Shown: piece after piece, positions 2,891 through 16,514 of the stretch
Position numbering within the stretch: position 1 is the first letter of the stretch
Layout: every line of letters begins with the position of its first letter
DNA from: Asaia siamensis
GTDB lineage: Bacteria > Pseudomonadota > Alphaproteobacteria > Acetobacterales > Acetobacteraceae
Direction: 5' to 3'
NCBI RefSeq assembly: GCF_014635085.1
Contig: NZ_BMCH01000010.1
Span: 1 to 64,000 of the forward strand
DNA length: 64,000 bases
The notes under the pieces: generated by a model
Seen by the model: the letters and a program-made list of their open reading frames with translations, nothing else
What the model was told of the DNA's origin: nothing
Databases searched by the model: none
Program-made: the position numbers and the translations under genes

Positions 2891-2914
2891 GTGGCGGAGA
2901 GAGTGGGATTCGAA
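2891..2914. repeat. att direct repeat, partial tRNA-Ser 3' end
   Basis: These 24 bases are identical to 16,491-16,514 and in the same orientation. They correspond to the encoded CCA, the 3' half of the acceptor stem and part of the T arm of the tRNA-Ser gene on the minus strand. Beyond base 24 the two copies diverge. This is the attachment-site duplication left when an element integrates into a tRNA gene: the right boundary of the left element and the left boundary of the 13.6-kb element. Confidence 0.9.
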
Positions 2915-3104: not shown

Positions 3105-3659
3105 TCAGGACGCTGTAACCCTTTGAATGGTTCTCAGGCCGACCCCATACTCTTTGGCTAAAGCAGTCCCGGTCTCTTCTCCGTAGCGTCTGCGGATAGC
3201 TTCCTGAGCTTGTCTGCTGAGCTTGGGTTTCCTGCCCATTTTGACGCCACTCTCCATGGCTCTCTTCCTGCCAGATTGGGTACGGTCGATGATGAGGGCG
3301 CGTTCGAACTCGGCGAAAGAGGCAAGGAGGTTCATCGTTAGGCTTCCCATCATGTCATCTCTGATGGTGCCAACCCCTTGGATGGTTATCGCGATACCCT
3401 GCTGTCTGATATTCTGGAGGACGGTCAGGATGTCGAGGGTGGATCTTCCGAGTCTGTCGAGCTTCATGACGACCAGTTCGTCACCTGTCTGGAGCTTCTT
3501 CAGCAATTTCGCGAATTGTGGTCTGTCGTCAGATTTCACGGCGCCGGAAATCTTCTCCTTGAAGATGTTGGTCCTTGAGACTCCCAAGGCCATCAAGGCG
3601 TCTTCCTGTTCCTGTAAATCCTGTCCTAAAGTCGATACTCTGCAATAGCCATATTTCAT
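3105..3659 (-). CDS. Serine recombinase (resolvase/invertase), first copy
   Basis: A 184-residue small serine recombinase. The catalytic domain begins YCRVSTLGQD with nucleophile Ser9, carries the KLDRLGRS motif and the FAEFERALI helix, and ends in a helix-turn-helix (about 145-184: AKEYGVGLRTIQRV). Such enzymes resolve cointegrates or invert segments at res sites. A perfect 15-base inverted repeat lies 66-105 bases upstream of its start codon and may be its site. It is a clearly different sequence from the recombinase at 7,075-7,635. The two flank one large ATPase gene, all in the same orientation. Confidence 0.92.
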   Translation of the reverse strand: MKYGYCRVSTLGQDLQEQEDALMALGVSRTNIFKEKISGAVKSDDRPQFAKLLKKLQTGDELVVMKLDRLGRSTLDILTVLQNIRQQGIAITIQGVGTIRDDMMGSLTMNLLASFAEFERALIIDRTQSGRKRAMESGVKMGRKPKLSRQAQEAIRRRYGEETGTALAKEYGVGLRTIQRVTAS

Positions 3660-3804: not shown

Positions 3805-6636
3805 TCATTTTGCGTATTTGCGTGATCTCAAGGCGAAAGCGGACATACCACCTTCCATAATTTTTGTGATCTCGTCTCGAACAACTGGTGTTTCGATGGC
3901 GCCATCTATTTCTACTCTAATTTTGGCAGCGCTAGCTGGAGCTCGATCTTCAGGCGCAGTCGCTCTCATGACAATTATCTTGTCGGCGTCACCATTCACA
4001 ACGAGATTTGAATTATGTGTGGCGAAGATTAGTTGGCGGGTGGTCTTTGATGTTCGAATTAAGCGCACAATTTCCATCATTACTCGATTGTCGAGATCAT
4101 CTTCTGGTTGGTCGATGATAAGGGTTCCTGCTTCTTGCCGGAGCAGTAATCTTAATAATGCTGATGCTTGCTGACCTGGAGACGCTTTCTCGAATTGTAT
4201 ACTTTGGCCTTCATTTATGTACGTAAGTGTGATGCTGTCGCGAGGAGTTGCACAAATAACCGAGGTTAGTGTATTTTCATTGATATTAGAGTAGACCTTT
4301 GCTGCTTGTTGGTCTGTTAGTGTGCCTGCCCCATCAGAAAATACACGTTTGACTGCTTCCGCAATTGCGGGAGGGGCTTCGGGCGGACTGCCTGCCATAA
4401 TTTTCAAATGGTATATCTCTAGAAGTTGCATGCACACTGTTTCCCAATTGGGAGCATCTACCTCCGCGTACATAGAAGCGACCCACTCCTTGCAACGTTC
4501 TTCTGGATCACGAAATCTACTGTTTTCCAAAAGTGCGCAGAGCGCTGCAATACAATCGGCTGGGCGTTTATCTCGAGAAGTACGTGCGTTTAACGCGCCG
4601 TCGGACTTCTCAGCAATTTGCATAGCAGAGCTTCTCAAAATCCCCAGGCGTTCGCCGACAAGTCGCATGAGTTCTTGTCTAGAGCTATCGAACTCTTCCT
4701 GAGCGAGGCTCTTATCCCGCACACTGTTAGCTGCCCGGGTTTGATTTTCGAGTGCTATCTTTAATTGTGAGGCTAGCTGCTCGTTTTCAGATATTAGCGC
4801 TTTATGCTGAAATTGGCGTGATTTATATTGCTCGTATTTGACATTGAAAGCAATCTTTTCTGTCGAAAACTGACTTTCGAATGCTTGTCTTACAGACTCA
4901 ATGTTTCGCAGTTCTTGAAGGATGCCATCCGAGAACCCTTTTATTCTGTCCTGTAGCCCCCCGAGAGCCAAGAGCATCTGAGGTAGATTAGAAAACGGTA
5001 AAGTCTCATGTTCAGAGGTTATAAACTGGGGGGGGGTCCACTTGGAGATTCTTTCGATTTCTGCTGCTTGGGTAGAGATCGAGTTTTTGAGATCCGACAG
5101 ATAATTTTGCCCCCGATCAAAACGCCTCGCATCTTCCATAGTGTCAATGTCTTCACGTTTAACGCCTTCTCTTCCGAGTTGGCTGGCGACCGATTCGATA
5201 CGTCTTTGTAGATCGGATACTGTTATATCAGCATTTTCTAGCTCGACTAATGATTGCCAGTAGGATGCTAAGTTAATGATGGCAGCCGAAACTCGGCGCT
5301 TGGAACTGACGAGAGCAGAATCCAAGCGCTGTCTGGTCTCTATAGACTCGGCTGCGGCAATCATCGTGATGTTGTCGGCCGCCGTAGCGGGGTCTACCAT
5401 AGTGGTGGACAACTCTTTTTGATGGAATGTCCGTGCAGGAAAGCGTTTCTGTGCCGAAGTGACAGTATAGTTTTCTGTAATTCCTGAGATTGTGACGGAT
5501 ATTTCTTCAGGCTTATCTCCACGCCTGAGCCAAATCTCTTGCACGCCTGAGCGTTCGATTGTCACGCGCACCCAGCCATTAGCTAGTGTATCGTGGATTA
5601 ATGCAGCTTCGCGCTCACGACGTCGTGGCCCCTTGCTGTCGGAGCTGGTTCGATCATTTTCCGACTTGCCCAATCCAAAAGCAAGATATTCTAGTATGGC
5701 GCTTTTACCTGATCCACGTCCGCCAATGAAGCTATTGAATCCCTCATTAAAAACAATAGTTATTGGATCTGTGCCAGTCAGGGTCGATTTTACTTCAAGT
5801 TCAATTATCCGCTCAGAGGGGGTGTTGGGTCTCGAGTATGAAATGCGCGCCTCGTCGGCAAGAAATGCTTGCCTTAGTGCTTCTATCGAACGTTCGCCCA
5901 ATCGCATCCAGCACTCATAAAGACCGAGCCGATCCCATGAGGCGCGTTTATTATCTCCAGTGACCACAATTGCCCTGCGTTTATCCCCCCAATCTGGTTG
6001 ACGCCCTTGAATCTTGGCGAGAGTTCCTGCCGTTAGATCTTCGAACGGGCATTCGACGTACACAGCGTCGATGGGCAAATCTTTCGCTCGCGCAGCGAAA
6101 CCTTGAGAGTTAAGCGATTTGTGCGCTGATTCATTGCTAAAATGAGGTAGTAAAATTAGATTCGAGGCGACTAATGTATCCTCTGATACACGCTCAAAGA
6201 GCTCGGCGACGGTAAGCCCGCATTCACGTGTCTGCGCTGTTTTTTCACTACTGTCAGCGCTGGCTGTCACTGAGCTCAGTTTAGTCAGAAATCTCTGAAG
6301 TATAGCATGGTCTGTATTCGGATCGAAAAGTGCCAAACATTGCACTGCATCTCGGCACGTCACCTCGATGCCCGGTAATACAAGCAGTCGTCCATCGGCC
6401 TCCGCGGCATCACGAATATACGGGAGGAATGCTATGTCATGATGGTCTGTTACAGCTACAATAGACAGAGAGCGCTCTATAGCGGCCGTCACAAAGCTTT
6501 GTGCCCAATCCCGCCGAGCTTGTTCACTCGCAGGATCTCCTCCTGGCAGTGCGGGTGAACCTGCCCACCCACGATCCCTCGGAGTATGGCATTGGAGATC
6601 GACTCGATGCCAAATGGCGCCAGGATGGGTAGACAT
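3805..6636 (-). CDS. PHP-domain plus SMC-like ATPase (TrlF-type)
   Basis: About 943 residues. The N-terminal 260 residues are a PHP phosphoesterase-like domain: DLQCHT (13-18), TDHHD (63-67), GIEVT (89-93) and a later LLPHFS histidine. An ABC/SMC-type ATPase follows, with Walker A GGRGSGKS (about 305-312), a long helical middle likely to form a coiled coil (about 430-670), SPGQQ signature (about 819), Walker B LIIDQPEDD (about 839) and H-loop FATHNS (about 864). This matches proteins named TrlF-family ATPases, often found on islands and suspected of anti-phage roles. The start at 6,636 is chosen because GGAG lies 7 bases before it; the longer frame to 6,663 lacks this. The first PHP histidine is Gln15. 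Function is inferred, not shown. Confidence 0.8.
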   Translation of the reverse strand: MSTHPGAIWHRVDLQCHTPRDRGWAGSPALPGGDPASEQARRDWAQSFVTAAIERSLSIVAVTDHHDIAFLPYIRDAAEADGRLLVLPGIEVTCRDAVQCLALFDPNTDHAILQRFLTKLSSVTASADSSEKTAQTRECGLTVAELFERVSEDTLVASNLILLPHFSNESAHKSLNSQGFAARAKDLPIDAVYVECPFEDLTAGTLAKIQGRQPDWGDKRRAIVVTGDNKRASWDRLGLYECWMRLGERSIEALRQAFLADEARISYSRPNTPSERIIELEVKSTLTGTDPITIVFNEGFNSFIGGRGSGKSAILEYLAFGLGKSENDRTSSDSKGPRRREREAALIHDTLANGWVRVTIERSGVQEIWLRRGDKPEEISVTISGITENYTVTSAQKRFPARTFHQKELSTTMVDPATAADNITMIAAAESIETRQRLDSALVSSKRRVSAAIINLASYWQSLVELENADITVSDLQRRIESVASQLGREGVKREDIDTMEDARRFDRGQNYLSDLKNSISTQAAEIERISKWTPPQFITSEHETLPFSNLPQMLLALGGLQDRIKGFSDGILQELRNIESVRQAFESQFSTEKIAFNVKYEQYKSRQFQHKALISENEQLASQLKIALENQTRAANSVRDKSLAQEEFDSSRQELMRLVGERLGILRSSAMQIAEKSDGALNARTSRDKRPADCIAALCALLENSRFRDPEERCKEWVASMYAEVDAPNWETVCMQLLEIYHLKIMAGSPPEAPPAIAEAVKRVFSDGAGTLTDQQAAKVYSNINENTLTSVICATPRDSITLTYINEGQSIQFEKASPGQQASALLRLLLRQEAGTLIIDQPEDDLDNRVMMEIVRLIRTSKTTRQLIFATHNSNLVVNGDADKIIVMRATAPEDRAPASAAKIRVEIDGAIETPVVRDEITKIMEGGMSAFALRSRKYAK

Positions 6637-7074
6637 TTTGATGCTCCGCACTTTCTCATGCAATGCGCTGTACTAAAGACTACAGTCTAAGACCGTGGCA
6701 ATGGGTAGATGTTAGAGTCTGCTTGGAAAGTGCGTTTGAGTTTCTATAAATGGTCAAATGAGTCGTTTGGCTTTCGCGTGGAAGCATGAGTTGCAGTTAT
6801 GTTGTGACGGTCAGCTGCACGATGGTTGCGCCGGGAATACTCATCAGGCGACTTCCCAAACAGGCTCCTAGGCGTCCCCTGCAGAAGGAGACCGCCAAGG
6901 TATTTCACCTCAATTGATCGAATTGTTGGAGATGAGAGTTCTGTATCTGAGTTCGAGCTTCAAACTAAGCCCGCCATTTTTCCGTCCCAAAAACACCTGT
7001 TTTGGGAATAGTCCATTTTTGCATGGCTGTGAATCCGGTCATGCACTTATGGGACGGGGTTTGTGATACGGTTT
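6637..7074. other. Gene-free stretch with hairpins
   Basis: No convincing gene lies here; a 61-codon plus-strand frame at 6,826 has no recognisable content. Two inverted repeats stand near its right end, downstream of the second serine recombinase: TCCCAAAA (6,985-6,992) with TTTTGGGA (7,000-7,007), and TGCATG (7,020-7,025) with CATGCA (7,040-7,045). They could be terminators for the recombinase or parts of a recombination site. The rest probably holds the promoter of the PHP/ATPase gene, but no clear -35/-10 pair was picked out. Confidence 0.5.
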
Positions 7075-7635
7075 TCAGGAGTTCATCGCCCTCCATGCGG
7101 TCATCTTGGAGACGTGCAGGAGCTTCGCCACCTCTCGTGCTGACAGCCCCTGCGCCTTGAGGCGTCTGGCCTGAGCGAGGTCTTCCTCGGGCAGGGAAGG
7201 GCGCCTTCCTAGACGTGTTCCTTTCGCCTTTGCAGTCTCCAGTCCAGACAGCACACGCTCACGAATGATGTTGCGCTCGAACTCCGCAAAGCCTGCAAGA
7301 AGCAAGAGGAACAGCTTGCCTCCGGCGCCTGATGTGTCGATGCCGAGGTTGAGGATACGGACCGCCACGCCTCGCTTTTTCAGCACATCGATGAGAGTCA
7401 GCACGTCCAGTGCATTGCGCCCGAGCCTGTCCAGCTTGGCGACAATCAGCGTGTCTCCTGCATGAAGCTTTCGCACCAGTCGCTTGAGCGCCGGTCGTGT
7501 CTTCCATGAGGTCGCTCCCGAGATGGTCTCGGTTACGATGCTGTCTTCGCTCACGCCTTCACGGAGCAGGTCGCTCACCTGATTGTCTGTCTGTTGTCGC
7601 GATGTGCTTACCCTCGCATAGCCATATTTTCCCAT
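7075..7635 (-). CDS. Serine recombinase (resolvase/invertase), second copy
   Basis: A 186-residue small serine recombinase with YARVSTSRQQ (nucleophile Ser10), AKLDRLGRN, a FAEFERNII helix and a C-terminal helix-turn-helix (LSAREVAKLLHVSKMTAWRA, about 164-183). It is the same family as the enzyme at 3,105-3,659 but differs widely in sequence, so this is not a recent duplication. It closes the right side of the PHP/ATPase unit. Whether it acts on the element, on a former transposon or on a plasmid cointegrate cannot be read from the sequence. Confidence 0.92.
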   Translation of the reverse strand: MGKYGYARVSTSRQQTDNQVSDLLREGVSEDSIVTETISGATSWKTRPALKRLVRKLHAGDTLIVAKLDRLGRNALDVLTLIDVLKKRGVAVRILNLGIDTSGAGGKLFLLLLAGFAEFERNIIRERVLSGLETAKAKGTRLGRRPSLPEEDLAQARRLKAQGLSAREVAKLLHVSKMTAWRAMNS

Positions 7636-9819: not shown

Positions 9820-11652
9820 TCACAGGGTCAAGGATGACGGTTGGTTCTGTCTGTTCCGGTTTTTCAGGATTGGCCTCGTTTGAGGTGGGTTTCCAAGACC
9901 GGCGTCTGGCATGTGAAGGGTATTTGCTAGACGTTTCATTGCTTCTTCTGGCCTCGTTTTTGCTATCAGAAGTAGCTCGACATCCTCTGTCCGTTTGAGG
10001 TGATCCATCAAACGGGCCATTTCGGCTTTCGATGTGAGGTAGGTTTTCACCTCCGGCAGGTTCATCCAGTCGCGGTGTTTGTGCTCGCGACTGCGGACAA
10101 CCCAGTCCGCCATCCATTTCATCGCATATAAAAAATTGCTGTCATCGCTCATATCCAGCTTGCCGATATCGTGTCGGTGATAGCCGAGAGCGCTCAACGC
10201 CTCATCGAAGACAGCTCTGGCCTTGCGGGCTTCTGCTCTGTGCCATGGCGTCCACAAGGTGACACGGGCTTCTGCATCCAGCCAGTCCTGTCTCAATCCA
10301 GTCAGGCGCTTCTCATGGCCAGCTCTGATATACGCTGTATCACGCGATTTCGGGTCGGGATGAGGTTCGGCTGAGAGATGAGACCAGCGGGACTGGAAGC
10401 TCTCGGCCAGTTCGGTGAGCAGGTCAGCGAAACGCTGCTGGCCATGCAGTCGGTCGCGGAGTTGCTGTTCCTTCTCCGCCTGGGCCTCGTTGAAATCGAT
10501 GACGGCCTGCACCTCTGATTGTGTCATGCCCTTGGTGATGCTGGCGCGTGTCTTGAGGGAAGATGCAGGTATGGCTCCAGTCCCAGCGACACTCCGAGTG
10601 TTAGCGCCGGTTCTCAGGACAGGCCCTGATATTTTTCTCTCTTTTGCTGGTCCAAGAGCAGTGCTGACGGAATCCTCAGAGGAGTTGCGTGGGTCCGGTG
10701 AAGGTGTTCCATCCTCATCAGCAGAGGGGTCAACGGGGGGTTCCCCCTTGCCGGTTGGGTCTCGTGATGTGTCACGAGGGCCAGGGCTGGCTATATCTTC
10801 CTTACTTCCCTGACGTATCGCGCTCTGTTCAGGTGTTTCGTGGCCAAGAACGAAGGCGCTGAACTCTGATTTGCGAACACCCAGCAAGCGGGAGAGTGAG
10901 CCCACGATGACGCCCTGCTCGTCTTTCAGCAGCACCACGTTGGGCTTTTTGTCTCCTGCCATCAGAGACCAGCCTTGTGAGGATATCGCACTCTGGAAGG
11001 CTTGCCAGTCTGTGCTTCCGGCATAGAGGTCACGCAGGACATATTTGATGTCGAAGGGGCTGGCGCCCTGTCTCTGACAGCGTCTGGATTGCGGGTCCGA
11101 GAGGACGGAGTTTGGAAGAGCCCCCTCACAGAGCACCTGTAATCTCTCGCGGTACTCTTCCGGGACTGCGTGATACACGGCCAGGTTGTGGCGTCCCTTG
11201 GTCAGCTCCAGCCCGTGCTTCAGTTCGAACAGACGGGCGACCTTCTCCTGTCTTTCGTAGCGGTGCGACACATCCAAAACCTTGCCTGTCTCCGGGTTCG
11301 TGGTGCGGACCAGAATATGACAGTGGCGGTTATCGGCCTCGGTATCGTGACGTGTCTTGGTGTGGATGACCGCAAGGGCAACATCGGACGCTTTGAATCC
11401 GAACTCCTGCGCCAGCATGGTGATGCAGTCTGCGAACTGCTCGGTCGTCAGTTTCTCGCGGGATGAGAGCTGGAAGTGCTGGACAGCATTGACGCGACCG
11501 AAAGCCGTGGCATCCGCGATGCAGTCCTCGATATCCTGTCGTCTGCCCTTCCATACGTGGATGCGTTCATTGTCGCCGGTCTTCTCGACGAGGTGATGAT
11601 AGATGGCGCCGGAACTGGATGCGGTCTTGATGGGGTTGCTCTTGAGTATCAT
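9820..11652 (-). CDS. Relaxase / mobilization nuclease (MobA/VirD2-like)
   Basis: 610 residues. The first 150 form a relaxase domain: Tyr18 (GAIYHHL) is the probable nicking tyrosine, and NRHCHILVR (His110, His112) with nearby His102 makes the HUH metal site. These enzymes nick oriT and pilot single-stranded DNA through a conjugation channel. The rest is variable, with a Pro/Ser-rich linker (about 280-370) and a charged helical C-terminal region; no primase or helicase motif is seen. It overlaps mobC by 4 bases. The element lacks type IV secretion genes, so mobilization would be in trans. Confidence 0.87.
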   Translation of the reverse strand: MILKSNPIKTASSSGAIYHHLVEKTGDNERIHVWKGRRQDIEDCIADATAFGRVNAVQHFQLSSREKLTTEQFADCITMLAQEFGFKASDVALAVIHTKTRHDTEADNRHCHILVRTTNPETGKVLDVSHRYERQEKVARLFELKHGLELTKGRHNLAVYHAVPEEYRERLQVLCEGALPNSVLSDPQSRRCQRQGASPFDIKYVLRDLYAGSTDWQAFQSAISSQGWSLMAGDKKPNVVLLKDEQGVIVGSLSRLLGVRKSEFSAFVLGHETPEQSAIRQGSKEDIASPGPRDTSRDPTGKGEPPVDPSADEDGTPSPDPRNSSEDSVSTALGPAKERKISGPVLRTGANTRSVAGTGAIPASSLKTRASITKGMTQSEVQAVIDFNEAQAEKEQQLRDRLHGQQRFADLLTELAESFQSRWSHLSAEPHPDPKSRDTAYIRAGHEKRLTGLRQDWLDAEARVTLWTPWHRAEARKARAVFDEALSALGYHRHDIGKLDMSDDSNFLYAMKWMADWVVRSREHKHRDWMNLPEVKTYLTSKAEMARLMDHLKRTEDVELLLIAKTRPEEAMKRLANTLHMPDAGLGNPPQTRPILKNRNRQNQPSSLTL

Positions 11653-11951
11653 CTGACCCTCCCCAGCACGCGATTGATGCGGGCTTTGAGGTCATCAAGC
11701 TCAGGAAGCTTGGAGGCGATCTCCACCTGTTCGCCAGTATTCAGACGTTTTGCAATTTGGTTGAGGTTATTCCCTATGGCAGAGAGTTCCTGACGCAGGG
11801 CCAGAAGCTCCTGTGCAATCGAAATCCCTCCAGCCAGTTCGTCCAGCAGAACCCTGCGACACCAGACAGACAGTCTGCGTGGTCCTGCGATACGTCTTAA
11901 TCTCTCCTGTTCCTCCGGACTGATCCGAATATGCACTGTTTCAGTTTTCAT
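11649..11951 (-). CDS. mobC: Mobilization protein MobC
   Basis: 100 residues with a ribbon-helix-helix start (TVHIRISPEEQERL, about 5-18) and the MobC signature GNNLNQIAKRLN (about 59-70). MobC proteins bind oriT and help the relaxase open and nick DNA. It is translationally coupled to the relaxase (ATGA overlap). The intergenic region upstream (11,952-12,100) is the natural place for oriT. Confidence 0.88.
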   Translation of the reverse strand: MKTETVHIRISPEEQERLRRIAGPRRLSVWCRRVLLDELAGGISIAQELLALRQELSAIGNNLNQIAKRLNTGEQVEIASKLPELDDLKARINRVLGRVR

Positions 11952-12173: not shown

Positions 12174-12764
12174 ATGAAACATTATGGAAAATTAATAAAA
12201 CAGCTCGAACTTACCGAAAAGAATGTAGTCGAGAGAAAGAAAGCCCTTGGAACGACAAGGCATATAGGCAATGCCTCTCTGTCAGTGACAGAAATCGAGC
12301 GCATTGTTTCCCTCATCAGGGCAGACCTGAAGGGACAAAAGTTTGCGACAGCAAAACGTGCGAATGCATATGCTGAAACTCTCAGAAAATCCGCGTATCT
12401 AAGAGATGCGAACCCTGCTCATCTGCTGAGCTTCTTTGTGGATTCACAGATTCCAGCAAGTGAAGTCAGTGCATTTGGCTGGGAGCAGGAAGATAGCAAT
12501 GCCGAGCTTAAGGGCTTCGGAAATGCGCTCTTTGTCGCGCTGGGATTGCTGGTTTTTCGTGATTGGGAGCGTTATCACGGCCATAGCCTGGATTGTGAAA
12601 TCCGGTATGTGCAATGGTTCGCCCGCTTTGCGCCAGATGAGTTCAATGCAGGGGCGTCGATTGCCTTGCATGCCCATTTCGATCTCGGGTTCTCGCTCCT
12701 GGCAGAGATGAAGGGCAAAAAACCTCTCCCTTGGTCTTATGAAGGACAGGGAGGCCAGCCATGA
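12174..12764 (+). CDS. Hypothetical island protein
   Basis: 196 residues, family not recognised. A basic helical first half (KLIKQLELTEKNVVERKK, TEIERIVSLIRADLKG) is followed by an acidic and aromatic second half (VFRDWERYHGHSLDCEIRYV, WFARFAPDEF). No signal or membrane segment. AGGAA lies 4 bases before the ATG, behind a strong promoter. It heads a three-gene set with 4-base overlaps, between mob and rep genes, so a role in DNA maintenance or transfer is possible but unproven. Confidence 0.65.
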   Translation: MKHYGKLIKQLELTEKNVVERKKALGTTRHIGNASLSVTEIERIVSLIRADLKGQKFATAKRANAYAETLRKSAYLRDANPAHLLSFFVDSQIPASEVSAFGWEQEDSNAELKGFGNALFVALGLLVFRDWERYHGHSLDCEIRYVQWFARFAPDEFNAGASIALHAHFDLGFSLLAEMKGKKPLPWSYEGQGGQP

Positions 12765-12988: not shown

Positions 12989-13278
12989 TTAATTCAGACG
13001 CCTTCAATCATCTCCTGAAAATGGCTCGTGGTACCAGCCGTGGCGAAATGATCGCTCGCGATTTCCTGCTCTGGTGGTGGAATGAACAGCTTTTCGGGGT
13101 GTTCGATTTTCATCGTCTGGTTCACCTCGATGGTGAATCATTCAAGGCTGTTATGGATCTTTCGCGGGAGATCTTTTCCTCGCCGACCACCTATCCGTCT
13201 TTAGGCTCCGAGGCTTACGGCGCTTTGCGCGAGCTTGTAGGCTGGGAGCTGGAACGTCGCAATCGCCTGAAGTCCTGA
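12985..13278 (+). CDS. Hypothetical island protein, Trp-rich
   Basis: 97 residues. The segment ARDFLLWWWNEQLFGVFDF (about 23-41) is unusual, with three consecutive tryptophans, and resembles small unknown proteins I associate with plasmids and islands of Proteobacteria, though I cannot name the family with certainty. GGGAGG stands 7 bases before the ATG. Its last 64 bases overlap the convergent rep reading frame, whose C-terminal tail looks non-genuine there. Confidence 0.65.
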   Translation: MINSDAFNHLLKMARGTSRGEMIARDFLLWWWNEQLFGVFDFHRLVHLDGESFKAVMDLSREIFSSPTTYPSLGSEAYGALRELVGWELERRNRLKS

Positions 13279-14705
13279 TAGAATGGCCCTCCTGCACCTC
13301 TCCCCAAAAGGACGGGTGCGGGAAATATTTCCCGCAGGCTGGTCAGGGATATACAGTGCTTTGCCTTCTCATGAGGAGGAGGTTGCCCTCTGGAGCCCGT
13401 ACATTCGCAAGGCAGACCGCAAGCTCGAACACCTTCTTGGTTCTTATATAAACAAGTTGGAACAGGACCAGAGTGAGAGACTGTGTTCTCCTGCTTCGGC
13501 GCCTTTGAAATCATGGAATCCCTGGGTGTGTTTGTCTCCCTGAAATCTTTCACGACCCTGAAATGAAGGGTATGCAGGAACATGGTTTGCAGTCTCTGGA
13601 TATCACTTTCGGCATAATGGAAATCAGGATGGCGAGCTGACAGCCTGTTCAGTCTCTCATCAGCAAACCCACGCAAAAGCAGGAGAACAGCCCCGCCTGA
13701 TGTCTTCTGCTTCATCAGTTGTCTGGCTCTGCTGACACGCCACTCAGAGAGAGCGCTGGTGTCCTTGCCCTCGTACACTCCCCGGTAACGGCGCTTGATG
13801 TCTTTCCTCAGTCCGATGAACGTCAGGCTGGTTTCAGGCTTGCCATGGTCCTTGGTCGTGTAACGCGAGGCTCTGGCGACATCACGGATATCCTTGATGG
13901 CTTCATTGCGTCTGTCGCATTCGTTGGGGAACGCATCGAGTATCTCTTCCTCGGCCCATGTCCTGTGTTCGGGTGAGACATAGAGCTGGATATGATAATG
14001 CGGTGTTTCATCTTCATGCAGTTCCAGCGCTGTCATGCCCAGCAGGAGAATATCCCTGTCCCGGGCTTTGCGTCTGACACGCTTCCAACGCCTGCTGATT
14101 TCAGTCTTGGCCTGTTCGTAGGAGCAGTTGCGGTATTCCCCCGGCAGAGTGAGGGTCAGGAACAATCCGGCGTGGTTGAGGAAGTTGACTGCGAGGTCGT
14201 GGATGCCATCTGCTATGGCAAGATTGACCGCATAGCTCTTGCGAAGATGGAACTGGCGCAAATCATGAGCTGACAGGCTTCGTTCTGGGTGTTCTGCATC
14301 AGGGATGATGATGAAGCTTTTGGCGCTTGCGGTTCTGGCGTTATCGAAGTCCTGCTGAACCTCGTCGTGTTCAGGATGCAGGCCAATGACCCTGCGGAGA
14401 TTGCGCCGTAACCTGTTGGCCTTGCGTGTAAAGACACGCCCGGTGATTCGTCTGAGTTCCTTCAGCTCGGCGTGAGATTGAGAGAGGAGGTCGAAGCCTG
14501 AAACCAGGTCGTCTGGCTGTGTTTCAACCCATGCGATGACCTCACGGGCGACCTGTTCGGCTTCCTCAAAACAGGTAAGAAAGACGCAGTTTTCTGCGGT
14601 TATTCGTGTGATTTGGTCTTTGTAGAACCGATGCAGGGGATACAGCTTGCACCAGATATCTGGCCTGTCAGCTCTGATATAACTCTCTATCTCTTCATAT
14701 TGCAC
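13215..14705 (-). CDS. Rolling-circle-type replication protein Rep
   Basis: 496 residues with the three HUH replication motifs in order: motif 1 FLTLTLP (182-188), motif 2 PHYHIQLYV (His236, His238), motif 3 ASRYTTKDH (Tyr282, Lys285). This pattern fits the phage GpA-type/plasmid rolling-circle initiators that nick and rejoin DNA. A GTG start at 14,705 has AGGA about 4 bases upstream and lies inside a leader ORF. The last 100 residues (from about 395) are Pro/Ser/Arg-rich and overlap two plus-strand frames, so they may be a run-on after loss of the original stop. The excised element could replicate with it. Confidence 0.8.
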   Translation of the reverse strand: MQYEEIESYIRADRPDIWCKLYPLHRFYKDQITRITAENCVFLTCFEEAEQVAREVIAWVETQPDDLVSGFDLLSQSHAELKELRRITGRVFTRKANRLRRNLRRVIGLHPEHDEVQQDFDNARTASAKSFIIIPDAEHPERSLSAHDLRQFHLRKSYAVNLAIADGIHDLAVNFLNHAGLFLTLTLPGEYRNCSYEQAKTEISRRWKRVRRKARDRDILLLGMTALELHEDETPHYHIQLYVSPEHRTWAEEEILDAFPNECDRRNEAIKDIRDVARASRYTTKDHGKPETSLTFIGLRKDIKRRYRGVYEGKDTSALSEWRVSRARQLMKQKTSGGAVLLLLRGFADERLNRLSARHPDFHYAESDIQRLQTMFLHTLHFRVVKDFRETNTPRDSMISKAPKQENTVSHSGPVPTCLYKNQEGVRACGLPCECTGSRGQPPPHEKAKHCISLTSLREIFPAPVLLGRGAGGPFYQDFRRLRRSSSQPTSSRKAP

Positions 14706-14782
14706 ATCATCCTACGCATTCCCCACGCAAAGCCCGGAGATGCGATAAATGATGTATACTGTCTGTCAGCGGTGCAAATCAT
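14687..14782 (-). CDS. Rep leader peptide ORF (31 codons)
   Basis: A short frame starts at ATG 14,782 and stops with TAG at 14,687-14,689, overlapping the rep start by 19 bases. AAGGAG stands 7 bases before its ATG, a better ribosome site than that of rep. The peptide begins MICTADRQYT and ends CNMKR. Leader ORFs of this layout control Rep synthesis in several plasmid families by translational coupling. Its ribosome site lies within a strong hairpin. Read directly from the sequence; expression is inferred. Confidence 0.6.
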   Translation of the reverse strand: MICTADRQYTSFIASPGFAWGMRRMMCNMKR

Positions 14783-14787
14783 AGCGT

Positions 14788-14838
14788 TACTCCTTCGTAC
14801 AGCCGGTCTGGGTTAATTTATGGCTGTAGGAGGGAGTA
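14788..14838 (-). promoter_or_regulatory. Two-part hairpin hiding the leader ribosome site
   Basis: Read on the minus strand, TACTCC, four bases, TACAGCC, a 17-base loop, GGCTGTA, four bases, GGAGTA form a 6 + 7 base-pair stem with a symmetric internal loop. Arms are at 14,833-14,838 with 14,788-14,793, and 14,822-14,828 with 14,798-14,804. The lower stem contains GGAG, the ribosome site of the leader ORF. This would restrict leader, and so Rep, translation; an antisense RNA or protein could modulate it. Confidence 0.55.
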
Positions 14839-14862
14839 TAGCACCCAGATAAGCGTATTTGT

Positions 14863-16452
14863 TTATATGGTGAATATTTCAATCGGGTACCGGATGTTTT
14901 CCACGACCTTGTGGAGATTTTCGGTGTCGATGCCTGAAAGGTAATTCAATGTACCCATGGATTTATGGGAGGCTTCGTGCCCCAGCAGAGCATCAATCCA
15001 CACCTCTCTGATGTCTGCTCTGACATTTCGTAAACGTGTCGAGACTGTATGGCGGAAGCCGTGAAACGTTACGGCTAGAGGAAGGCCAAGACTGGTTTTG
15101 TGTTTCGAAAACTCATTGGCAAATGTTTGGCCACGAGAGCGAACATCTGACCCTCTCAGTTCGGAGAAGAGATATTTCTCACCCTTCTTCATGTAATCCA
15201 TTATGCCGAATCTCATCAGCTCTGAATGAACCGGGACGACCCGTATGCCTGCCGGAGTCTTGGGCTTCCATCCGTCGTCATGAGGGCCAATCACAAAGCA
15301 GAGGATGCCATCTTTCTCGATAATATCCTCGTTGCGGAGGTTGGCGATTTCTCCGAGTCGCATGCCGGTGTAGAGAGCCATCGTCACCATGCCCCGAAAC
15401 GTTCTTTCGCTGATGGCGGTTCGTTCCCATCGCGTTGTTATGAGGGTCGTCAGTTCCTGCTCTGTCCAGGCGCGCCGGATAACCTTCTGGGTTGTATCGA
15501 AGTCCCAACCTTGCCACGGGTTGCGTGAAACAACCTCACGACGAACCAAATCTGCCCATGCCGGAGAGATGCGGGAGAAGTGATTTTTCACGGTTTTGGG
15601 AGCAATGGTTTCCAGCTCTTCGCTTAGAACCCTGTCAATCTCCTCCTGAATGGAGAGACCTTTGCGCCCTCTGCCATGAACGGTGGGGAGGGAGAGAAGC
15701 GCATCCCTGAAATCACCCACGGTGCTTCCGTTGATGTCTCGGACATCCATATCACCAAAGCAGGATATGAAGAGTTGCAGGGTCTTCTTCGCGTTTTTGA
15801 TGGTATGACTGCTGACTTTCTTACCCTCAAGATGTTTGGTCACGACCGTTGAGATGGGAAGCTTGGCTTTGCGAATCCCTTTGGGGCGCGTTTCTGGCTT
15901 TTCCTCGGGTAAGGCGGGAGGCAGAGGCTGTGCGGTTGGTCTGGCAATCTCGGAGATGATACTCTTGAGGTCATCAATCCGCTCTTGAAGCATGTTTTCA
16001 CGAAGGCTCACACGGATAGCGTGAAGGTCCAGTATCTTCGATAGCTCTTCATAGGCAGAGACCATCTTGTCTATCTGGTTTTTGGATCTCGTGTGATCCT
16101 GAAGTCTTTGAAGCAGATGCTCGGCGCGAGCAAGTTCGGCTTCCTTACGCTCTGCGAGAAGTATGGCCTCATAGGCTTCTGCCTGCTCTTTCAGGAGCTG
16201 AGCGACTTCAGCGGGAGTCATAAAGAGGGCTCTCTGGAACAGGATTGATGTCTGCCCATAAAGGTAAGACGCACGTCCTTTGGCTGTAAACCTCTCGGCG
16301 GTATGAAGGCTGAACCAAAGCTCACGCTTGCCCACCACGTCGCGTATTGCGACCGGGACCACCCTGCGAAAATGGTAGTGGCTTTTCACAAGACGAAGCA
16401 AACACGCTTCTCCAGAATGGAGAAGAGTTTTGGAGAAAACCCGCTCTCGCAT
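14863..16452 (-). CDS. Tyrosine integrase of the mobilizable element
   Basis: 529 residues. An N-terminal domain (HYHFRRVVPVAIRDVVGKRE, about 25-44, DUF6538-like) is followed by a long helical region (about 80-170), a core-binding domain (about 200-310) and the catalytic domain with Arg365 (TGMRLGE), Lys398, His464-x-x-Arg467 (FHGFRHT), His492 (LLGHEAS) and Tyr504 (TLNYLSG). It would recombine the att repeats at the tRNA-Ser end. Its start codon is 40 bases from the tRNA CCA end and inside a 14-base palindrome. It is of a different subfamily from the integrase at 1,589. Confidence 0.93.
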   Translation of the reverse strand: MRERVFSKTLLHSGEACLLRLVKSHYHFRRVVPVAIRDVVGKRELWFSLHTAERFTAKGRASYLYGQTSILFQRALFMTPAEVAQLLKEQAEAYEAILLAERKEAELARAEHLLQRLQDHTRSKNQIDKMVSAYEELSKILDLHAIRVSLRENMLQERIDDLKSIISEIARPTAQPLPPALPEEKPETRPKGIRKAKLPISTVVTKHLEGKKVSSHTIKNAKKTLQLFISCFGDMDVRDINGSTVGDFRDALLSLPTVHGRGRKGLSIQEEIDRVLSEELETIAPKTVKNHFSRISPAWADLVRREVVSRNPWQGWDFDTTQKVIRRAWTEQELTTLITTRWERTAISERTFRGMVTMALYTGMRLGEIANLRNEDIIEKDGILCFVIGPHDDGWKPKTPAGIRVVPVHSELMRFGIMDYMKKGEKYLFSELRGSDVRSRGQTFANEFSKHKTSLGLPLAVTFHGFRHTVSTRLRNVRADIREVWIDALLGHEASHKSMGTLNYLSGIDTENLHKVVENIRYPIEIFTI

Positions 16453-16490: not shown

Positions 16491-16514
16491 GTGGCGGAGA
16501 GAGTGGGATTCGAA
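16491..16514. repeat. att direct repeat inside the intact tRNA-Ser
   Basis: This copy is identical to 2,891-2,914 over 24 bases. It forms the 3' end of the functional tRNA-Ser gene (CCA, acceptor stem and T arm) plus one flanking base. It marks the chromosomal boundary of the integrated elements. After it the sequence is the ordinary trpF-pyrF region. Confidence 0.9.

Follow-up and report, generated by a model that had tools for sequence, protein, structure and literature searches.

In ColIb-P9 (IncI) and in IncB and IncL/M plasmids, rep is preceded by a leader open reading frame (ORF), and a hairpin lies over the rep start; in the pseudoknot of the ColIb-P9 type, the loop of the leader stem-loop contacts bases upstream of the rep Shine-Dalgarno (SD) sequence, and an antisense RNA acts on that loop. 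In R1 (IncFII), translation of repA is coupled to the leader ORF tap, and the antisense RNA CopA blocks leader translation (PMC5717011, passages on R1). On the island SGI1, the last codons of the S004 leader ORF reach into repA, whose SD and start are masked by a stem-loop, and translation of the leader in cis is required for repA (PMC7826253, passages on S004 and repA); the word "antisense" does not occur in the text of that paper. Translation of the rolling-circle RepB of pMV158 is inhibited by the small antisense RNAII, and the passages on pMV158 describe neither a coupling leader nor a hairpin resembling the one called SL2 below (PMC4485353 and PMC5717011). A literature search that covered titles, the openings of abstracts, and few subscription papers returned no description of the region analyzed here, which is weak evidence of absence. 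From the sequence analysis that follows, we consider it fairly probable that this region directs leader-coupled, probably antisense-controlled expression of rep on a mobilizable island that is integrated at tRNA-Ser and carries an HUH-type Rep. Leader-coupled control of rep taken alone is likely and is rated above this combined statement; the antisense RNA taken alone is rated below it.

The island and its Rep family

The window, i.e., the whole 64,000-nt stretch analyzed, is part of a 67.9-kb contig of an Acetobacteraceae genome. On its minus strand, a tRNA-Ser gene is followed by a tyrosine integrase gene (14863..16452; Pfam Phage_integrase), a 157-nt gap, rep, mobC, and a relaxase gene. The rep gene (13215..14705, minus strand, GTG start) lies directly downstream of the integrase gene in the same direction and encodes an HUH-type replication initiator (Pfam REP_ORF2-G2P, 34 bits against a cut-off of 27.8). 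The only Pfam families that Rep matches are of the HUH type, no family in an NCBIfam profile search matches it, and its H-Y-H and Y..K positions are invariant across the seven Reps compared. The relaxase and MobC/NikA-like mobilization genes (9820..11951, minus strand) were also assigned with Pfam. An exact-word scan of the window located a 24-bp near attachment repeat inside the tRNA-Ser gene (16491..16514) and a far copy, identical to the tRNA-Ser 3' end, at 2891..2914; together they delimit an element of about 13.6 kb. With a tyrosine integrase, attachment repeats, a relaxase, and MobC, this is an integrative mobilizable element, and none of the longer ORFs between the repeats resembles a conjugation apparatus when judged by eye. 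Also inside the element are two resolvase-like proteins (3105-3659 and 7075-7635, both minus strand) and a protein of 952 residues in which a GGRGSGKS stretch is ATPase-like (3805-6663, minus strand), all three recognized by eye.

In the Rep search, matches came from 20 of 397 genomes in the family, 28 of 395 in the order, 4 of 9 in the window's genus, and 10 of 26, 1 of 1, and 8 of 49 in three genera, these sets being overlapping; relatives of rep that carry names come from three Asaia genomes and one Neokomagataea metagenome-assembled genome. A search of the phages collection gave no match, and that of the plasmids collection gave a single one (28% identity over 41% of the query). We examined 28 distinct places with a rep start, of which 16 belong to the window type and 12 to a more distant one, the latter including the rep fragments L057 and L058. 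The sixteenth window-type locus, L017, whose match covers 61 residues, stands outside every count out of 15 given below, and the 15 scored loci are related to one another and do not represent 15 independent cases. Of the 14 other scored loci, 13 encode a Rep that is 61-94% identical to that of the window (in L026 over only 128 residues), and L050 encodes one that is 49% identical; in the 5 of 12 distant loci with a reported identity, the figure is 28-34%. Matches that do not cover the rep start were excluded (L016, L019-L024, L029-L031, L056, L059, L073-L078, and other partial or weak matches), and several entries are the same places under two handles (L006, L007, L009, and L014 are L001-L004; L015 is L054; L018 is L055 and part of L085; L060-L072 and L079-L084 repeat earlier entries). 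Also excluded was L004/L014 of Asaia prunellae, where the end of the integrase gene joins rep codon 187 directly, with rep codons 1-186 and the control region gone.

An integrase gene directly precedes rep in all 12 larger regions fetched around relatives, and a tRNA gene stands immediately before that integrase gene in nine of them. Ten of these regions have mobC and mobA after rep, the two exceptions being L042, which is cut by a contig end, and L041, where the genes are located elsewhere. The integrases preceding rep are 27-96% identical to that of the window, which indicates that leader and rep travel together and not with the integrase. A protein of 196 residues that matches no Pfam or NCBIfam family is encoded against rep in the window (12174-12764, plus strand); its relatives (65-88% identical) sit between rep and mobC in 5 of the 12 larger regions. 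At L036 (G389:C1:2286000-2304000), two elements lie back to back with diverging integrases whose starts are 135 bp apart, one followed by a window-type rep (L008) and the other by a distant-type rep (L028). Another distant-type rep, L085, lies on a 49-kb Acetobacter ascendens plasmid (NZ_CP015165.1, 18283-18975), where it is annotated as a hypothetical protein and is directly followed by a transposase gene.

Layout of the control region

The layout of the region, its conservation, and the paired changes are seen directly in the sequences; folds and SD accessibilities are computed. The first-pass annotation had described a 31-codon ORF with an AAGGAG ribosome site that overlaps the rep start by 19 bases, and this was borne out. 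The leader ORF (MICTADRQYTSFIASPGFAWGMRRMMCNMKR; 14687..14782, minus strand) runs from an ATG at 14782 to a TAG ending at 14687 and shares 19 nt (14705-14687) with rep, whose GTG occupies 14705-14703; its SD, AAGGAG, lies at 14790..14795 (minus strand). The open frame itself is unremarkable: among 20,000 mononucleotide shuffles of it, 27% retain a frame that is open as far as the rep start. We judge the leader to be above chance because it recurs across loci. An SD, a leader ORF, and the SL1 hairpin described below are present in 15/15 scored loci and in L017, so that the short ORF and the stem, whose conservation in related rep loci the annotation had named as a check, are both kept. Leader ORF, hairpin, and promoter occur in all 16 loci that keep a window-type rep start, with differing stem sequences. 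The leaders of the scored loci have 23-31 codons and end at +19 relative to the rep GTG in 12 loci, at +11 in two, and at -1 in one (+11 in L017). At L010 (1376-1516) and L017, the predicted RNA start is the A of an ATG opening a 46-codon frame, which lies alongside the SD-led leader of 28 codons and ends at +19 from the rep GTG; leaderless translation may occur there.

Folding and accessibility calculations place a hairpin, SL2 (14703..14756, minus strand), over the rep SD (14713-14710) and GTG. The annotation had recognized a translation-coupled layout on a mobilizable element with a rolling-circle-type Rep, all of which stands; it did not contain SL2, the hairpin predicted to hide the start of rep. 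The rep SD is unpaired at 0-0.28 in 13/15 loci and is mostly exposed in L010 and L050 (0.53-0.77). When the leader arm is blocked as a ribosome would block it, the rep SD rises to 0.44-0.74 unpaired in the 13 loci; the value is almost unaltered in L010 and drops in L050, and the rep GTG is still mostly paired (0.03-0.53 unpaired). As modeled, SL2 would account for release of the rep SD in 13/15 loci and would not alone free the start codon. Ribosomes translating the leader would open SL2, end at the rep start, and expose the rep SD, giving Rep by coupling; without leader translation, SL2 would hold rep shut.

The leader SD lies in the 3' arm of a second hairpin, SL1 (14788..14838, minus strand), which was defined by folding, symmetric pairing, and accessibility. 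Its arms (14838-14822 and 14804-14788) pair at 15 of 17 symmetric positions around a 17-nt loop, and its 5' foot (14838-14828) lies inside the promoter. The hairpin of 6 + 7 base pairs given by the annotation holds to within two pairs, the MFE fold having blocks of 6, 2, and 7 pairs. The 226-nt region as a whole folds with a z-score of -3.85 (0/200 shuffles as low). A role of SL1 as terminator of the integrase gene was rejected: no T run follows it, and the terminator scan lists no minus-strand terminator there.

The candidate promoter of the leader-rep RNA is an extended -10 box (TGCTATACT; 14835..14843, minus strand) inside the 5' foot of SL1. The motif TGnTAYAMT stands 131-136 nt before rep in 15/15 loci and in L017, and TGnTATAMT occupies a like place in 12/12 distant loci; a consensus scan found no -35 box for it. 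The first purine 7-9 nt beyond the box lies at or adjoining the base of the upper SL1 stem, and in the window we infer a predicted RNA start at A14827. An RNA from the predicted start is without the SL1 5' foot, and its leader SD is therefore mostly free, whereas an RNA reading through from upstream hides the leader SD: the computed unpaired values across the 15 loci are 0.45-0.81 and 0.03-0.33, respectively. Full-length RNA is more structured than its shuffles (z, -1.97 to -5.05), and RNA from the predicted start is much less so (z, -0.05 to -2.63). The annotation's placing of the leader ribosome site in a hairpin is thus upheld, with full occlusion predicted only for read-through RNA. Transcripts entering from the integrase gene would contain the whole of SL1, keep the leader SD hidden, and give little Rep; rep RNA made from the extended -10 box would begin at the lower end of the upper SL1 stem and have its leader SD mostly free. 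PMC8450116 gave no passage on read-through. The kept 5' foot of SL1 may be a lock on read-through RNA or part of an antisense RNA, which as predicted would cross the promoter and contain both SL1 arms.

Candidate antisense RNA and alternative readings

On the opposite strand, a -10-like box, TATACT (14755..14760, plus strand), could start an antisense RNA running rightward through the leader start and SL1. The motif TATAMT is conserved at -47 to -50 from rep in 15/15 close loci and in L017, with neither TGn nor a -35 box found in the close group. A terminator at the expected place (about -149) was found in 5/15 close loci (L010, L011, L025, L032, and L034); in the window, the sole candidate for an antisense terminator falls within the integrase gene (-212). 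In the distant group, 12/12 loci have on the opposite strand both a TGn[TG]AT[AT]AT box, located -41 to -52 from rep, and, just past the sense promoter, a hairpin plus T run; the antisense RNAs predicted from these measure 82-101 nt. By eye, many of these loci contain a CTCC-like sequence as a possible partner of the rep SD, and they have no leader ORF common to all 12. The antisense form of SL1 is computed to be more stable than the sense form in 14/15 loci, with a margin of ≤0.3 kcal/mol in two, and over the whole predicted antisense interval the lower z-score belongs to the antisense strand in 10/15 and to the sense strand in 5/15. An Rfam covariance-model search of the window found no known antisense RNA family, and that of eight related loci gave five weak matches, none to a plasmid antisense family. 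Three Rfam matches about 1.5 kb upstream of rep, to Plastid-psbl-rps4, fall below the curated score (50-52 bits; gathering, 68) and possibly mark a tRNA-like attachment region (L057:38-89, L050:4259-4313 on the minus strand, and L054:42-95). For the antisense RNA over the loop that the annotation had proposed searching for, the conserved opposite-strand box and the promoter and terminator of the 12 distant loci speak in favor, and the terminator count of 5/15 in the close loci speaks against.

The region is best explained as the 5' control region of rep, common to a family of mobilizable elements that acetic acid bacteria carry integrated at tRNA genes. Started inside the leader, the antisense RNA would probably pair with the leader start and SL1 and so shut the leader, and hence rep, in proportion to copy number. 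By such a leader switch the region may exert copy control, and it may thereby act in replication of the excised circle.

A further contact may join the two hairpins. The SL1 loop contains CCCA (14809..14812, minus strand), a possible partner of UGGG upstream of the rep SD (14722..14725, minus strand), and a loop CCCN is complementary to N'GGG in 15/15 loci, the fourth pair being A-U in 6 and G-C in 9. These were counted by motif because the alignment shifts the loop and GGG columns by one, and the contact was noticed after the fact, is short, and spans few independent lineages. The G run faces UUUC in L050, which means that pairing with CUCC is not the sole reason for its being kept. A candidate 7-bp duplex between the SL1 loop and the window's UCUGGGU, immediately before the -10 box, was rejected, as it is broken in L006 and L007 (by eye) and UCUGGGU also lies upstream of the predicted RNA start. 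We put forward only tentatively, and with more doubt than belief, that these parts form an IncI-like switch on an HUH rolling-circle replicon: the leader would open SL2, the freed GGG would pair with the CCC loop of SL1 and turn rep on, an antisense RNA would compete for the loop, and the lower SL1 arm would silence integrase read-through. A sister group within this Rep family would have a simpler antisense/anti-SD switch in the corresponding position, and the control mechanism would then have changed within one Rep family.

It is unlikely, though the best placed of the alternatives, that the leader is coupled to rep without any antisense RNA and that SL1 serves as a read-through lock only, its 5' foot in the promoter barring Rep expression from integrase-side RNA. 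The integrase gene directly upstream in 12/12 larger regions would fit such a lock, as would a leader SD that is hidden in read-through RNA and not in the region's own RNA, the greater structure of the full-length RNA, and an antisense terminator that is clear in only 5/15. Against it, the opposite-strand TATAMT of 15/15 close loci stands where 12/12 distant loci have an antisense promoter, antisense SL1 is the more stable form in nearly all loci, and L050 keeps SL1 despite a terminator-like hairpin before its promoter (seen by eye; a script demanding perfect stems left it unscored).

Because the MAFFT alignment A1 misaligns the upper SL1 of two leader types, the upper stem was compared by symmetric pairing anchored at the -10 box and the SD. 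By this measure, each of the 15 loci has 14-18 pairs among its first 20 symmetric positions. A C-G pair of other type B loci is U-A in L025, an A-U position is G-C in L010, and where L011, L013, and L032 have a mismatch, L012 has G-C, whereas L025 and L034 have U-A. Alignment A1 covers 14 loci and 18 named pairs of lower SL1 and SL2, in which 95.2% of cells are standard pairs, compared with 45.6-59.4% when partners are slid by 1-3 columns and 89.9% in shuffles. Cells changed on both sides number 18, compared with 8.5 in shuffles (0/500 as high), a count that relatedness of the loci inflates; pairs with a two-sided change (4; reached by 401/500 shuffles) and further pair types (12; reached by 496/500) are not above shuffles. 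The 5' foot is a pyrimidine tract facing the purine SD, and permuted tracts pair equally well in 2.7-48% of trials for nine arms; in a swap table, a locus's own SL1 partner is often not the best.

That SL1 is instead a DNA site, either a Rep nicking or binding site (origin) or a repressor operator, would suit an inverted repeat overlapping a promoter, and rolling-circle origins often carry hairpins. We think this very improbable: a Rep site should follow Rep, yet the Reps of the window and L009 are 94% identical over 394 residues, and their SL1 stems are unrelated with pairing kept.

The leader peptides fall into unrelated-looking types, and synonymous differences are lower in the leader than in rep (0.07-0.11 versus 0.19-0.43; in type B, 0.11 versus 0.43, with a leader pN/pS of ~0.6). 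What is kept would thus be translation up to the rep start and a nucleotide stretch, not a peptide. That the leader is a sensing peptide on whose sequence ribosomes stall, and not merely a coupler, is scarcely credible, even with leader ORFs in 15/15 loci and a C-terminal RMMC.M motif common to 12/15, given that this motif lies across the rep start, which dictates it, that L010, L050, and L011 use other frames and lack it, that no resemblance is apparent among the N-terminal parts of types A, B, L010, and L050, and that the few synonymous changes of type B point to nucleotide-level constraint.

Comparison with described replicons

The leader-coupled and probably antisense-controlled arrangement favored here shares two features with R1 and with IncI, IncB, and IncL/M plasmids: a short leader ORF, served by an SD of its own, extends into the rep start in 15/15 loci and L017, and a hairpin hiding the rep ribosome site is predicted in 13/15, being weak in L010 and L050. 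The initiator family is not shared, Rep here being HUH-type only. The passages on R1 describe an unrelated initiator, a theta plasmid, a separate CopB repressor, and two promoters, and this region has, unlike R1, an HUH Rep, an integrated element, and a promoter inside the hairpin. Compared with ColIb-P9, the possible contact here is putative, of 4 or 5 bp, and made by other bases, and the Rep is unrelated. pMV158 has a rolling-circle Rep as here and differs, in the passages that describe it, by a CopG repressor gene upstream of repB; no copG-like gene of that kind lies directly upstream of rep in this region, where the integrase gene is upstream and only the 31-codon leader lies between.

If the proposed control is correct, it would offer a testable switch for the timing of Rep in rolling-circle mobilizable islands of acetic acid bacteria, and leader-coupled antisense control would not be tied to one replicon type. 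The window and L009, with nearly the same Rep and different SL1 stems, provide material on how RNA-based incompatibility groups change, and a promoter inside a hairpin suggests a simple means to tell own from read-through RNA.

By function, the nearest published case is S004-repA of SGI1, to judge from the passages on it: there as here, a mobilizable island has a leader overlap and a stem-loop over the rep start. It differs in that RepA is IncN2-like, compared with the HUH-type Rep here, and in that its promoter is driven by the activators AcaCD and FlhDC (PMC7826253). The region would thus work like SGI1, R1, and pMV158, but we do not file it as a member of any of them because its Rep is HUH-type; what is notable is that an HUH Rep, a chromosomal island, a hairpin containing the promoter, and two layouts of control in a single Rep family come together.
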